Assembly: GCF_035917675.1 (NCBI RefSeq)
Contig: NZ_CP109104.1
Span: 2,418,001 to 2,482,000, forward strand
Direction of reading: 5' to 3'
Length of the DNA: 64,000 nt
Source of the DNA: Streptomyces sp. NBC_01775
GTDB lineage: Bacteria; Actinomycetota; Actinomycetes; Streptomycetales; Streptomycetaceae
A model generated the notes under the pieces. That model was given only the letters and a program-made list of their open reading frames with translations. It was not told where the DNA came from and searched no databases. The translations under genes and the position numbers were made by a program. How positions within the stretch are numbered: position 1 is the stretch's first letter; the number at the start of each line of letters is the position of its first letter. Positions 32,014 to 36,942 of this stretch are shown piece after piece.

Positions 32014-32223
32014 TCAGGCGCTCAACTGTCCGTCCCGCACGGCCGTGACGAAGGCCGACCAGCCGTCGGCCGGGAACACCAGCATGGGGCCGTGCGTCGC
32101 CTTGCTGTCCCTTACCGGGACGACGGTGGCGAAACCGTCAGCCACCTCGACACACGCACCACCGTCCTGATTGCTGTGAGAGCTTTTGCGCCATGTGACA
32201 GCGCTCAGGTCGATGGATCGCAT
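32014..32223 (-). CDS. DUF397 domain protein
   Basis: A 69-residue DUF397 protein of the kind abundant in Streptomyces. It has the family features LSAVTWRKSSHSNQDGGACVEVADG, VVPVRDSKATHGPMLVFPADGW and FVTAVRDG. DUF397 genes nearly always follow an XRE regulator with a DUF5753 domain. The pairs act in developmental and antibiotic control and may resemble antagonist/regulator modules. Here the start codon lies 19 bases inside the end of the upstream XRE/DUF5753 gene, which is broken. The small partner is intact but orphaned, so it may be unregulated or poorly expressed. Confidence 0.9.
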   Translation of the reverse strand: MRSIDLSAVTWRKSSHSNQDGGACVEVADGFATVVPVRDSKATHGPMLVFPADGWSAFVTAVRDGQLSA

Positions 32224-33040
32224 GTCGCTTCCTCCAACATCCGCAAGATGAGTTCGCGCGACTCCGTCCGGGGGAGCGCGAGGTCGCGCACCGCAGAGTA
32301 CGCCTTCTGGAAACGCACAACCGGGCCGGAATCCTCGATGAGTTCGCCCCGGTACCCGTTCTCGATATACGCGACGGTTCTGCCCTCGGGAAGGAGCAAG
32401 TACCACGTGTCGGTGCTCATCAGACCGTGCATCCCCGCGGTTTGCGGAAGCACGTGCACCGCCACGTTGGCCCGCTCCGTAGCATCCAACAGGTGTTGCA
32501 GCTGTTCGCTCCACTCCTTCTTGTCCCGCAACGGTGTCCTCACACCGCCTCGGAGAGGATCGTCCGGAACGGAGGCGCGTCGTCCCCGTCCAACAACTCC
32601 CGCCGTCCCATCCGAGCTTCGCCCTGCTGGTCCAGTTCCTTCCCCCGGAGGCCGCCCGCAGCGAGCACCTCCCGCGCGTAGGCGGGGGTCTGCAACAACC
32701 CCGGCAGCACACTCACGGCGAAGTGCCACAGGCTCACCGCTTCCGACTCCAGCGCCATGTAACGCCGGTACCGCTCGCGGAACTGGGTGTGGTCCCCGGC
32801 GGCGATCTCCCACAGGACGAGCAGCAGGCCCGGTGTCCTGTAGTACGTGTCGAGGGCCTGGACGACCTCGGGGCTGCCGAGCGTCTTCCCCTTCTCCATC
32901 TAGCCGAACAGGGAGTAGTCCCAGCCCAGTCGCTCGCCGAGCTGCCGCAGGCTCGCCCCGTCCCGAGAAGGACGGGGCCAGGCCTCCGGCCGCGCCCGCC
33001 CAGTCCACAAGAATTCCCGTACGACAACCAGCGCGTACGA
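32205..33040 (-). pseudogene. Broken XRE/DUF5753 regulator
   Basis: Three pieces of one helix-turn-helix regulator survive on the minus strand. The HTH end (SLRQLGERLGWDYSLFG) stops at a TAG (32900-32902) where relatives have a Lys or Arg codon; the frame then continues MEKGKTLGSPEVVQALDTYY. The middle part runs to FRTILSEAV and stops. The C-terminal DUF5753 part (RTPLRDKKEWSEQLQHLL to LRMLEEATCD) is in another frame. The break is explained by a 2-base TG duplication in the CACAC tract at 32541-32545. The N-terminal region before the HTH also looks disturbed. The gene overlaps DUF397 as is normal for the pair. Its upstream limit is approximate. Confidence 0.8.
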
Positions 33041-33327
33041 CAGCCAAGGAGTCCCATGTCCAAGCCGCCCCTGCCCCCGAGGCATTCCTCGGCCATCTCC
33101 ACAGTCGCGGCGTCCTCCTGACCGACCGAACGCAAGCCCGCTGCGATCGATGGGTCACCCGACACCGCCACTACCAAGCAGAAGACTCCGACACTTCCTG
33201 ATCTGGTCGGCTGACGCCCGCCTGGCCCCACCACGCATCGCCATCGCTGCAGCCCAGATGGCAATGTCTGATACTGGCTCTGCCTGGAGTTGCATGACCA
33301 TGGATGGTTATTCAAAAGCCCTCAAGG
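33041..33327. other. Junction between broken regulator and oxygenase genes
   Basis: Nearly 290 bases with no intact gene. On the plus strand a frame ending with TGA at about 33201 reads EAFLGHLHSRGVLLTDRTQ then ARCDRWVTRHRHYQAEDSD, which looks like the end of a lost protein; I do not recognise it. Composition becomes less GC-rich from about 33200 onward, marking the edge of the next segment. Confidence 0.35.
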
Positions 33328-34098
33328 TCAGCCGGGCGGCATCAGATCGCTCTCGCTGATGGTGTACGTCAGCAGGGGGTAAATGAAGTCCGTTTCATTG
33401 TTCTCACGGCGCCGTAGTCGGTAAAACTCGCGCCTCTGCTCCTCATCGGCCGACATGAGGCGCGTACCCTGCGGGAGGTATACACGTCCTTCGCGAAACC
33501 GAACGAAGGTCTTTGACGTTCGAAAGGTTACACCCAACCATTGGTTGTCCGCCGCTTGGACCGGCGCGTCCAGTACGATCCTGTGCCTGAGTCGCCGATT
33601 CGAGTCGACAGAAAACGCGACGATACTGTTGTGGGCGAGGGGGATCTCGAACTTCTCGCCACCTGACTCCTTTGATTCGAAGATCAGCTTCCTGGGCGGG
33701 CTCGCTTCGGGGTGTTGGTAGCAGGAGAAGACGGCAATAAACGATTCGTTGGCCAGATCGAGGGCTTGGTCCGAATGGCTGCCCATGGTTGTGTAAGCGT
33801 TCGTGTAGCTCTCGATGAGAGCGTTGTTGAAGCCGACCGAAAGCGCCGCACGTTCTTGAATCTGTTGCGCCAGCCGTTCGTGCACCGCCCGGAAACGCTG
33901 CGTCGGGCTGCTGTATCGAGTGGTAGTACGTACGAGAGGCACACCACCCGCCTCGTCGATCTTGGTAAGCGCGGCGCCTCGCCGGCCTTTTCCTACGTCT
34001 TCCAGACGAGCCGACGCGGACAGCTCCGCAAAGAGATTCTTCTCAGTTGGCAAAGCGCACGAGAGGATCTCATCCGAGATCCTAGACTCGGGGGTCAA
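33328..34098 (-). CDS. AlkB-like 2-oxoglutarate/Fe(II) oxygenase, short member
   Basis: A 256-residue protein with a complete double-stranded beta-helix oxygenase motif set. Iron ligands would be His108 and Asp110 (MGSHSDQALDL) and His172 (RRLRHRIVLD). The 2-oxoglutarate-binding Arg193 is in LGVTFRTSK, like the AlkB motif NLTFR. The preceding NALIESYTNAYTTMG matches the AlkB region before HxD. AlkB-type enzymes oxidise nucleic-acid bases, but other substrates exist. It starts with TTG 34098, with GGGAG six bases upstream, 17 bases inside the end of the longer oxygenase gene; the two appear to be paralogues. Two 60-base lines in the gene (33661, 33721) count 57% and 55% GC, low for this genome, suggesting transfer. 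Confidence 0.7.
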   Translation of the reverse strand: MTPESRISDEILSCALPTEKNLFAELSASARLEDVGKGRRGAALTKIDEAGGVPLVRTTTRYSSPTQRFRAVHERLAQQIQERAALSVGFNNALIESYTNAYTTMGSHSDQALDLANESFIAVFSCYQHPEASPPRKLIFESKESGGEKFEIPLAHNSIVAFSVDSNRRLRHRIVLDAPVQAADNQWLGVTFRTSKTFVRFREGRVYLPQGTRLMSADEEQRREFYRLRRRENNETDFIYPLLTYTISESDLMPPG

Positions 34099-35380
34099 CG
34101 TAATCTCCCGTGTTCATACTGAAGAGAAATTCGTCGCCGTAATCGATGAAGGACGAGGTCCTGTTCTCCTCGGCGTACAGCCTGCGCAGCTCATTCATGC
34201 CGGCCGGTGTGGGTGGCCCCAGCTTCACCAAATCTCCGGCCACTTTGAGGAACGTGTGGCCGTTCTTGTGAAGGGCTTCGGCGCTCGAACAGCGCACCAC
34301 GTATCCCAGGCGGGTCGGGAGCAACTCGGCGTCCAACGTTGAGGGCCGGATTTCGTGCGTATACAGGCGGTTGGTGGACAGCGGCATGAAGAACACGGAG
34401 CCGGGATAGAGAGTCACCGTGAACTGCGGGGGGAGCGCGACCCCGTCGCGTTCCTCGGCCGGCCCCTTGAGGCGAAAGTGGAGTTTGGTCAGCCCGCTGG
34501 CACCCTTCACACCGTAGTCGAAGACGTCTTCGGCCAGGGGCTGCAGCTTGTCGAGCCGGTCATAGAAGGTGCAGAAGGCCATGATGCCATTGACGGGCAT
34601 GTCCTTGGTCTTGTCGGCATGGGCCGAGATCTTGGCCTTGGACTGCTTGCGCTCGGCCGTGGCAAAGGTGTTGTGGTAGATCTGAGCGAGGACGTGATTT
34701 AGTGGTGCCTGGTTCCGGAAGACAGCGGCGGCCTCGCGGTTCAGAGCCTCGACGATGCGCGTGTCGGTCGGGCGAAAGTTCTCGGTCGGCCCCGAGAGAT
34801 TTGTGGAGCACCGGAGCAAGCGGAAATGTAGTTCGTCACCGTTTCGCGTGACGGGCGTCAGGTAGATTCCGCTGCGATGAGCTGTTCCCGGCTTGGTGGA
34901 CTCAGTCAGGGACTGGAACGCGTGCTCCGCACTGATCCGTCCGAAATGATCGGCGCCGAGTCCGAAAAAGCGGCGATAGTACACGCCGACGCCATGTACG
35001 CGGACGGGAACTCGGCCGAGGCCGACGAGAGTCCGAGGTTTGTCGACGCCCTCGTGGTAACCGTGTGATAGCTCCCGGATAACAAATACCCGGGCAGCCG
35101 CATGCAGTTGGCGGTCGCTGATCCCGGATATATCGCCACACAGGTAGACGGTCTTCTGCGCAAGGTTGGGCGAACCAGAAGCAAGGTCCTCTGGCGTGAT
35201 TGTGGACCCGAAGAAGTCCCCGATCAAGTCATTATCTTGCAACATCGAAGGCGCAACCAAGATGTTGCTCGCATCCTCGATGCAGGCTTCTGTTAGCCCT
35301 GTTGTGCACATCAAACGGTACCTGTCATTTGCAGATCTTGGTGGACTGCTCAAAACCGTGGACATGGCGATGGCCCGCAC
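34082..35380 (-). CDS. AlkB-like 2-oxoglutarate/Fe(II) oxygenase, long member
   Basis: A 432-residue protein whose C-terminal half is a second 2-oxoglutarate oxygenase domain. It has His254-x-Asp256 in ISAHADKTKDMP, His342 in RLYTHEIRPS, and an Arg357-x5-Arg363 pair (TRLGYVVR) as in AlkB. NHVLAQIYHNTF before HxD and PLSTNRLYTHE before the distal His align with the shorter downstream protein (NNALIESYTNAY, VDSNRRLRHR). The first ~215 residues are an added domain I do not recognise (starting near YRLMCTTGLTEAC and including RVPVRVHGVGVYYRRFFGLG). GTG 35380 or ATG 35365 may be the start; neither has a clear ribosome site. AT-rich DNA upstream (TTTGC...GCAAA at 35388-35408) may hold the promoter. 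Confidence 0.65.
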   Translation of the reverse strand: MRAIAMSTVLSSPPRSANDRYRLMCTTGLTEACIEDASNILVAPSMLQDNDLIGDFFGSTITPEDLASGSPNLAQKTVYLCGDISGISDRQLHAAARVFVIRELSHGYHEGVDKPRTLVGLGRVPVRVHGVGVYYRRFFGLGADHFGRISAEHAFQSLTESTKPGTAHRSGIYLTPVTRNGDELHFRLLRCSTNLSGPTENFRPTDTRIVEALNREAAAVFRNQAPLNHVLAQIYHNTFATAERKQSKAKISAHADKTKDMPVNGIMAFCTFYDRLDKLQPLAEDVFDYGVKGASGLTKLHFRLKGPAEERDGVALPPQFTVTLYPGSVFFMPLSTNRLYTHEIRPSTLDAELLPTRLGYVVRCSSAEALHKNGHTFLKVAGDLVKLGPPTPAGMNELRRLYAEENRTSSFIDYGDEFLFSMNTGDYVDPRV

Positions 35381-36073
35381 TCCCTAATTTGCATTGCGAA
35401 TACGCAAACGAAAGGCGACGGACCGTTGAATCTTGATGCTCTCACGGGGCTCGACAGCGGGCAACGGGTTCTGCCGGTAGCGCGCTCTCCTGGGCCGCGC
35501 CCGAGGCCAGGGGCCCTATCCGTGAGCGGCCCTGCGCCGAACCCGCCGCGCATGCGGCCGACCCTGAACCCCCAACGGCAGAGCCCGGCATGCCTGAGCG
35601 TCCACGTAGCAACAGGCCGACCGGCCGGGCCCGACTTCAGCCCGGTCTCAGGACGGGCCGGGAAATGCCTCTGGATCGGGCTCCGGGCAGTGCGTTCGAC
35701 CACCGGGTGGCTGCGAGGCTGTCGGCGAGACGGAGGAGGTCCGCGCTCAGCGGGAAGTCCGCGTTTCACGCGGCTTCGAAGGAACTCTGTACCTCGCGCC
35801 CTTCGTCCGCGAGCAGCCGGTGGCACGTCGGGCGAGGCGAGCTTGGAGCGCGGGCCCATCGCCGAGCCGAGGCGCAACTTCGGCCACTTCTCCAGGACTT
35901 GATACCGGCGTGGCGTCTTCGGGGGCCTGGGGAGGGTTAGGGGGCTCCGGGGTCCGCCGGGGGCCCGATATAACCAGAAGCTATATGCGCCCCGTACGCG
36001 GATGCTGCCTGGCGTCCGCCAAGGCGTGCATCGAAAGTAGATCTTGGTCGGGCTATGATCTTGGTTCCTGGCA
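35381..36073. other. Gene-free stretch between oxygenases and IS remnant
   Basis: About 690 bases. The first 35 bases are AT-rich and contain TTTGC/GCAAA arms, a likely control region for the oxygenase pair. The rest returns to high GC, and its long open frames on both strands are low-complexity Arg/Pro/Gly shadows. One minus-strand frame (about 35690-35850) reads LLADEGREVQSSFEAA, a stop, then NADFPLSADLLRLADSLAA, which may be debris of a lost gene. ATATA/TATAT arms occur near 35970-35990. Confidence 0.35.
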
Positions 36074-36942
36074 CGTGGAGATCTGACGGACGAGCAATGG
36101 GCGGTGCTGGAACCGTTGTTGCCGAAGGGCAAGAAGCCCGGCCGCCCGCTGACGTGGGCCCGGCGACAGCTGATCGACGGCCTACGGTTCCGGGACCGCA
36201 CCGGTGTTCCGTGGCGGGACATGCCCGCCGAGTACGGACCCTGGGGTCGGGTGCAGGACCTGTTCCGCCGATGGCAGCGGGACGGCATCTGGCATCGGAT
36301 CTTCACCGCGGTGCAGGCCTTGGCGGATGCCAAGGAGCTGATCACCTGGGACCTCAACGTAGACTCCATGGTCGTGCGCGCCCACCAGCACGCCGCCGGT
36401 GCGCGTAAAAAGGGGAGTTCCAACAGAAACCGCCTGGCGGTGTCGCCTGCGAGCCAGACGACCACGGGCTAGGACGCTTCCGCGACGGTCTTACCACCAA
36501 GCTGCACCTGGCCTTCGAACAGAGGCAGAATCCCATGTCCAACGTGATCACGGCCGGGCAGCGCGGGGATTCTCCGCAGTTCGAGGTCGTGCTGGGCCGC
36601 ATCCGGGTGCCCCGACTGGGGTGCGGCAGGCCCCGCGTGCGCCCGCGACGGGTGCGGGCGGACAAGGCGTACGCGTCCCGCAAGAACCGCGCCTACCTGC
36701 GGCGGCGCGGTATCCGCTGCACCATTCCGGACAAGGCCGACCAGGCCTGGAACCGCGAGAAGCGCGGGTTCAGCGGGGGTCGGCCACCGAAGTTCGACCC
36801 AGAACCACAAGGCCCGGCACGCGGTCGAGTACGGCAGCAGTCGCCTCAAGAGACATCGAAGCGTGGGACCACCAGGTACGACAAACTCGCGGTCCGCTAC
36901 GAGGCTGCCGTCCTCGTTGCCGCCATCAACGAGTGGTTGTGA
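36074..36942 (+). pseudogene. IS5-family transposase remnant (two-frame type)
   Basis: DDE transposase of the IS5 family. The first frame reads DLTDEQWAVLEPLLPKGKK to WDLNVDSMVVRAHQHAAGA (first Asp). At AAAAAG (36407-36412) a minus-one shift leads to the second frame (QQKPPGGVACEP, then VRADKAYASRK with the second Asp, then YDKLAVRYEAAVLVAAINEWL and stop). Such shifts are programmed in related elements. Between about 36800 and 36868, however, the catalytic Glu block RHAVEYGSSRLK lies in the other frame because of two compensating indels, so the protein lacks its third catalytic residue. No start codon precedes the first frame, and I could not find matching terminal inverted repeats. The element is dead. 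Confidence 0.8.
36407..36412 (+). other. Probable minus-one frameshift site AAA AAG
   Basis: Codons AAA AAG at the join of the two transposase frames allow slippage one base back, after which the second frame continues without a stop. Its position matches the overlap of orfA and orfB in two-frame IS5 relatives. Confidence 0.55.

Follow-up and report, generated by a model that had tools for sequence, protein, structure and literature searches.

Two overlapping genes lie on the minus strand of a 64,000-nucleotide stretch of the 9.34-Mb genome of Streptomyces sp. NBC_01775 (contig NZ_CP109104.1, positions 2,418,001 to 2,482,000; hereafter the window). We call them B (34082..35311) and A (33328..34098), in the order in which they are read. 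Judged by alignment, A is an AlkB-fold protein that keeps its metal site and in which the canonical 2-oxoglutarate (2OG) arginine is replaced, and B is its complete counterpart. Three features are new here: one partner has invariably lost its 2OG arginine, the two genes are constantly paired, and a hairpin lies in the leader of B. Our tentative interpretation, which we put at somewhat below an even chance, is that the genes form a transferable module encoding one heteromeric AlkB-type oxygenase, with B as the catalytic subunit and A as a non-canonical partner. The sequence-only reading of this DNA had proposed a two-protein oxidation system, possibly a heterodimer. The constant pairing and the split of residues between the two proteins lend that proposal partial support, and a division of roles between A and B is proposed here.

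Active-site residues and kinship of A and B

Conservation was assessed in 225 rows per protein, consisting of the query, 120 database proteins and 104 loci, with organisms partly shared. The database proteins were the best 120 each of 1635 A-like and at least 2530 B-like relatives (clustered at 90% identity, E up to 1e-3), the latter count possibly including other families. The residues H108, D110, H172 and R193 of A were invariant in 225/225 rows, as were W187, E96, R136 and K143. B showed the same invariance for H249, D251, H337, R352 and R358 and likewise for Q228 and Y230 (numbered in the frame of 427 residues, where R358 is the residue that the sequence-only reading called R363).

The two proteins diverge at the first position of the RxxxxxR region, which reads R352-LGYVV-R358 in B and W187-LGVTF-R193 in A. 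The hhalign alignment places W187 of A (codon 33538..33540, minus strand) on R352 of B (codon 34310..34312, minus strand). Structural alignments of A end with residue 197 on ABH2 258, AlkB 214 and ABH3 279; if they are free of gaps in between, the offsets bring W187 to ABH2 248, AlkB 204 and ABH3 269, and R193 to ABH2 254, AlkB 210 and ABH3 275. R352 of B would also fall on AlkB 204, counting from a structural match of residue 362 to AlkB 214 that was obtained with a poor model of B. We take ABH2 248 and 254, AlkB 204 and ABH3 269 and 275 to be arginines. E96 of A, within the segment LIESY, is aligned to the asparagine of LINRY in ABH2, a residue that holds 2OG. An early survey gives HxD, a further histidine and RxxxxxR as fully conserved in AlkB homologues, with the first arginine coordinating 2OG and the last most likely involved in AlkB-specific substrate binding (PMC544882). 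A review likewise describes Arg210 as the AlkB-specific residue of the substrate pocket (PMC8508711). The 2OG sites first proposed (H108/D110/H172/R193 in A and H254/D256/H342/R363 in B) were correct for the metal ligands of both proteins. Their arginines have to be reassigned: R193 of A and R363 of B are of the AlkB R210 type, the second arginine of the motif, and the 2OG arginine of B is R352.

That A and B are duplicated and diverged partners, as had been supposed, is borne out by hhalign (probability 93.5%, E 2.3e-7, 201 aligned columns, 27% identity). Their C-terminal parts beyond the motif, present in both proteins, can also be aligned with each other by hhalign, and these parts set them apart from the ALKBH family (PF13532). 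Relative to this family, A further differs by a tryptophan for the first arginine and a glutamate for the ABH2 asparagine, B by an extra N-terminal part, and the pair by its overlapping gene arrangement. In the profile search against PF13532, A scored just above the cut-off (31.5 bits; cut-off, 31.2) and B below it (20.4 bits). Of the 67 rows in the B family alignment, 52 matched PF13532 at E up to 1. No TET/JBP family was among the Pfam matches of either protein at E up to 10, an absence that is no proof, and a sequence search of B against the PDB gave nothing convincing. The same genome encodes a canonical AlkB (G000:C1:1273316-1274110; PF13532, 133 bits), which keeps RVNVTVR and, unlike the pair, is a single gene with the full motif.

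The predicted model of A has an AlkB-type fold, the nearest solved folds being human ABH2 and ABH3, FTO and Escherichia coli AlkB. The model of B is poor (predicted local distance difference test, 56.5), and its AlkB-type structural matches mostly begin near residue 117-125. The N-terminal domain of B, previously estimated at about 215 residues, is then nearer 100.

Pairing, gene arrangement and distribution

A scan with one genome per species yielded 169 stretches encoding relatives of B, and the best 80 served as our set of loci. A follows B in 80/80 of them (in three, B was found by tblastn though absent from our in-house gene calls), and identity to the window copies is correlated between A and B (0.84 over these loci). 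In an order-level sample of 197 genomes, B was present in 25 and A in 26, with A adjacent to B on the same strand in all 25. The co-occurrence expected of a paired system was found in every B-bearing genome of this sample as well as at every locus. The extra A is a 53-residue C-terminal remnant without B (G153:C2:3998053-3998205), the only such case in the 197 genomes.

As first noticed, the two minus-strand genes overlap, here by 17 nucleotides (nt) (34082..34098). This overlap recurs in 63 of the 77 loci measured, the spacing from B to A being -17 nt in these, -20 in 9, -29 in 4 and +28 in 1. A has 256 residues and a TTG start with GGGAG upstream; 92 of its 120 best database relatives have the same length. 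The overlap suggests that translation of B and A is coupled. B could start at ATG 35311 (409 residues), ATG 35365 (427 residues) or GTG 35380 (432 residues). Since 89 of its 120 best database relatives have 409 residues and the equivalent place is ATG in 59 of 81 loci aligned, counting the window, ATG 35311 is most likely the start, not GTG 35380. The other 22 loci have another codon there, and some copies of B would by this alignment start elsewhere. A translated N-terminal extension of B was rejected because the leader contains an overlapping hairpin as well as indels of lengths not divisible by three.

The guanine-plus-cytosine (GC) content is 59.8% in B (427-residue frame), 58.6% in A and 71.4% in the window. 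Averaged over the 80 loci, it is 64.7% and 64.3% for the pair and 71.6% for each flank (77 loci with enough flank). The low GC of the shorter gene had been recognized from two sampled lines, and the 55-57% given then is replaced by 58.6% for the whole of A. The commonest other neighbour family occurs in 13/80 loci, and recurrent families lie at varied distances (in-house clustering, some loci offering less than 10 kb of flank). The pair is a stand-alone module without a fixed gene context.

Among the 79 of 80 loci with a named genus, 50 were from Streptomyces, 14 from Actinomadura, 5 from Kitasatospora, 3 each from Streptacidiphilus and Catenulispora, 2 from Embleya and 1 each from Actinocorallia and Dactylosporangium. 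B was found in 3 of 72,556 records of a plasmid collection. A single-sequence search of 346 genomes of the phylum matched only the genome of the window, and a profile search of 345 genomes of the class matched only this genome and three of the same genus; both samples include few genomes of any one genus, and hosts found by the species-level scan escaped them. In the 600 bp preceding B, 279 of 3160 locus pairs had sequence in common, for the most part within the final 150 bp (the leader); for the 600 bp that follow A, the count was 25 of 3240. The longest shared stretches were between near relatives. The tree of B, with 9 of its 78 inner branches well supported, requires 17 changes of genus label (minimum, 7; mean of shuffled labels, 27.6; as low in 0/200 shuffles). 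We infer horizontal spread among filamentous actinomycetes from four lines taken together: the patchiness, the GC content, a gene context that shifts and a tree that is partly mixed. A canonical AlkB match was present in 177/197 order genomes. Of the 25 genomes with the pair, 20 had one, and the five without it belong to one genus. For the most part, the pair thus adds to AlkB and does not replace it.

The leader of B and the flanking genes

A conserved leader precedes B (35309..35465, minus strand; aligned for the window and 23 loci, n = 24). It consists of a promoter-like or operator-like element, GTTGCCC...GTGAGAGCATC (35435..35465, minus strand), conserved in this alignment, then a hairpin of about 60 nt (35368..35428, minus strand) and then an untranslated stretch to the ATG. 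The hairpin of the window folds with -24.8 kcal/mol (z -3.85). At E up to 0.01, a covariance model recovered it from the window and from 25 of the 80 loci (21 of these 25 were in the model), always directly upstream of B; the rest of the 1.65 Mb searched gave no match. In the order-level sample it occurred in 5/197 genomes, all of which have the pair and carry the hairpin next to B; the 172 genomes without B gave no match under strict filters that may lose weak copies. Rfam had no match at the leader. Because 55 of the 80 loci, including all 14 from Actinomadura, were unmatched, the hairpin is an accessory of the module and not essential to it.

Fifteen ungapped 60-nt copies were compared, and 87.4% of the positions in the 26 pairs of the stem were paired. 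Sliding the partner strand lowered pairing to 39.5-52.2%. Double-sided changes were seen in 18 cells, compared with 7.4 in shuffles (0/500 reached 18), and 14 copies gave nearly the same result (88.2% paired; 18 cells, compared with 7.8). Two weaker measures were closer to the shuffles: 8 pairs changed on both sides (4.8 shuffled; 10/500 as high) and 24 further pair types (22.1 shuffled; 56/500). All these statistics are favoured by related rows and by the choice of ungapped ones, and the shuffles ignore relatedness. Two stem positions were unpaired in 11 and 12 of the 15 copies and one in 7. Pairing is complete or almost complete in some copies (-58.2 kcal/mol, z -12.0). The window copy is weaker, and the whole 124-nt leader of the window favours a different fold (z -1.23). 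Since U-G pairs are frequent in the stem, the hairpin would act at the RNA level rather than as a DNA palindrome.

A regulon for the promoter-like element found no support, as its 22-bp core had one exact copy in the genome and one with three mismatches. The region 33100-35600 yielded no sigma-70-type consensus. In some loci (e.g., L095, L086 and L088) the leader is reduced to the promoter-like element and the start codon. Six Actinomadura loci (L055, L056, L075, L078, L082 and L100) are without GTTGCCC...GTGAGAGCATC and have GATAATCT in common before B, perhaps a different promoter.

The flanks of the pair had been described as a broken regulator and a dead insertion sequence, and both descriptions held. 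A DUF5753 regulator gene is split over two frames (32205-33158 and 32540-32899, minus strand) and adjoins a DUF397 coding stretch (32014-32712); several genomic copies of DNA resembling this regulator region exist. On the other side, an IS4/5-type transposase (DUF4096 and DDE_Tnp_1; 36104-36942, plus strand) is likewise split over two frames and has a partial DDE match.

Possible roles of the pair

In the proposed module, B would be the catalytic subunit with the full Fe(II)/2OG signature and would be made first, and A, its paralogue, would be made by coupled translation from the overlapping gene. A has lost the canonical 2OG arginine but retains the AlkB fold, the metal triad and the arginine on the substrate side, so it would most likely be a partner that completes or regulates the active site of B or holds the substrate; less likely, it would use iron with another co-substrate. 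The substrate is probably a nucleic acid, since the nearest folds are ABH2, ABH3, FTO and AlkB. The closest arrangement that we found in print, compared by motifs and not by sequence or fold, is that of the fungal non-heme iron heterodimer TlxI/TlxJ of talaromyolide biosynthesis, in which TlxI is without the alpha-ketoglutarate arginine and TlxJ is catalytic (PMC12141560). The heterodimer has a kcat/Km of 1.63 per min per uM, and TlxJ alone one of 0.02 (PMC12141560). In both systems the partners are related, one without the 2OG arginine (here A) and the other competent (here B), and by analogy B would be the catalytic one. Unlike A and B, whose complex we infer, TlxI/TlxJ is a proven heterodimer, is fungal and lies within a biosynthetic cluster.

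Several points weigh against a transferable heteromeric oxygenase. Complex formation and the division of labour between A and B are proposals, and the substrate is deduced from the fold. R136 or K143 of A might bind 2OG, which would leave A fully active. Because its model is poor and it missed the Pfam cut-off, B is assigned its fold from weak matches and from its kinship with A. Labels cluster on the tree of B, so there is also much descent within genera, and the case for horizontal spread draws mainly on context, GC and patchiness; no empty site was found by using the left flank, itself of a many-copy family. A bolder version, that this is the first heteromeric AlkB-type nucleic-acid oxygenase, stand-alone and transferable, editing a specific modification of the host and sensing its own activity through the leader hairpin, is improbable.

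The strongest alternative, rather unlikely in our judgement, is that A and B are two independently active oxygenases acting in sequence on one or two related substrates, with 2OG bound in A by a different basic residue, in the manner of some other oxygenase subfamilies. The invariance of R136, K143 and the metal ligands of A (225/225 rows) speaks for it, as a pure scaffold needs no metal ligands. Against it stand the changes of arginine to tryptophan and asparagine to glutamate, both invariant and both at positions of the ABH2 2OG pocket, and the fact that the two genes are found together.

We consider it doubtful, more so than independent activity, that the pair serves small-molecule tailoring or detoxification, for instance natural-product oxidation or self-resistance. 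Its hosts are natural-product producers. TlxI/TlxJ, the 2OG oxygenase heterodimer known from print, is a tailoring enzyme (PMC12141560). No biosynthetic family recurs beside the pair, however: the top neighbour family is that of the 13/80 loci, and among the 146 nearest genes, which were scanned together with 135 distant ones against PADLOC and Pfam using simple in-house gene calls, the commonest Pfam domain was TetR_N with 8, and cytochrome P450 had 3.

A module for anti-phage or genome defence, modifying bases or stripping modified ones, is less probable again. The patchy distribution (25/197 genomes), the low GC relative to the flanks, the stand-alone arrangement and the nucleic-acid oxygenase fold would suit it. 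Yet neither A nor B matched any PADLOC family at E up to 10, and a search for phage and viral copies of the pair found none. Near neighbours matched 56 PADLOC families and the far set 9 (each in at most 1/135 proteins), and among 25 of the 56 near families each was found in at most 3/146 proteins, 15 of the 25 being PD-T4-6 models with one member each. We took this comparison, of family counts and without an enrichment test, as no support for a defence island. Finally, A is very improbably a decaying duplicate without a function of its own: it has lost the canonical AlkB residue, but it is retained in 80/80 loci with many residues invariant in 225/225 rows, and the ratio of nonsynonymous to synonymous substitution rates (0.15-0.45 over 12 chosen locus pairs per gene; 0.20-0.45 for A) shows purifying selection on both A and B.

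In the open-licence literature (titles and abstract openings), we found no paper on such an oxygenase pair. If A is a non-canonical partner of B, the pair would represent an oxygenase of the AlkB family divided between a complete subunit and one that has no co-substrate arginine. It would involve a large uncharacterised family (the 1635 A-like and at least 2530 B-like relatives given above), and a vague annotation ("AlkB", "hypothetical protein") would become a testable claim that hinges on one residue. A and B would then offer a natural pair for studying why oxygenases team up with altered partners.
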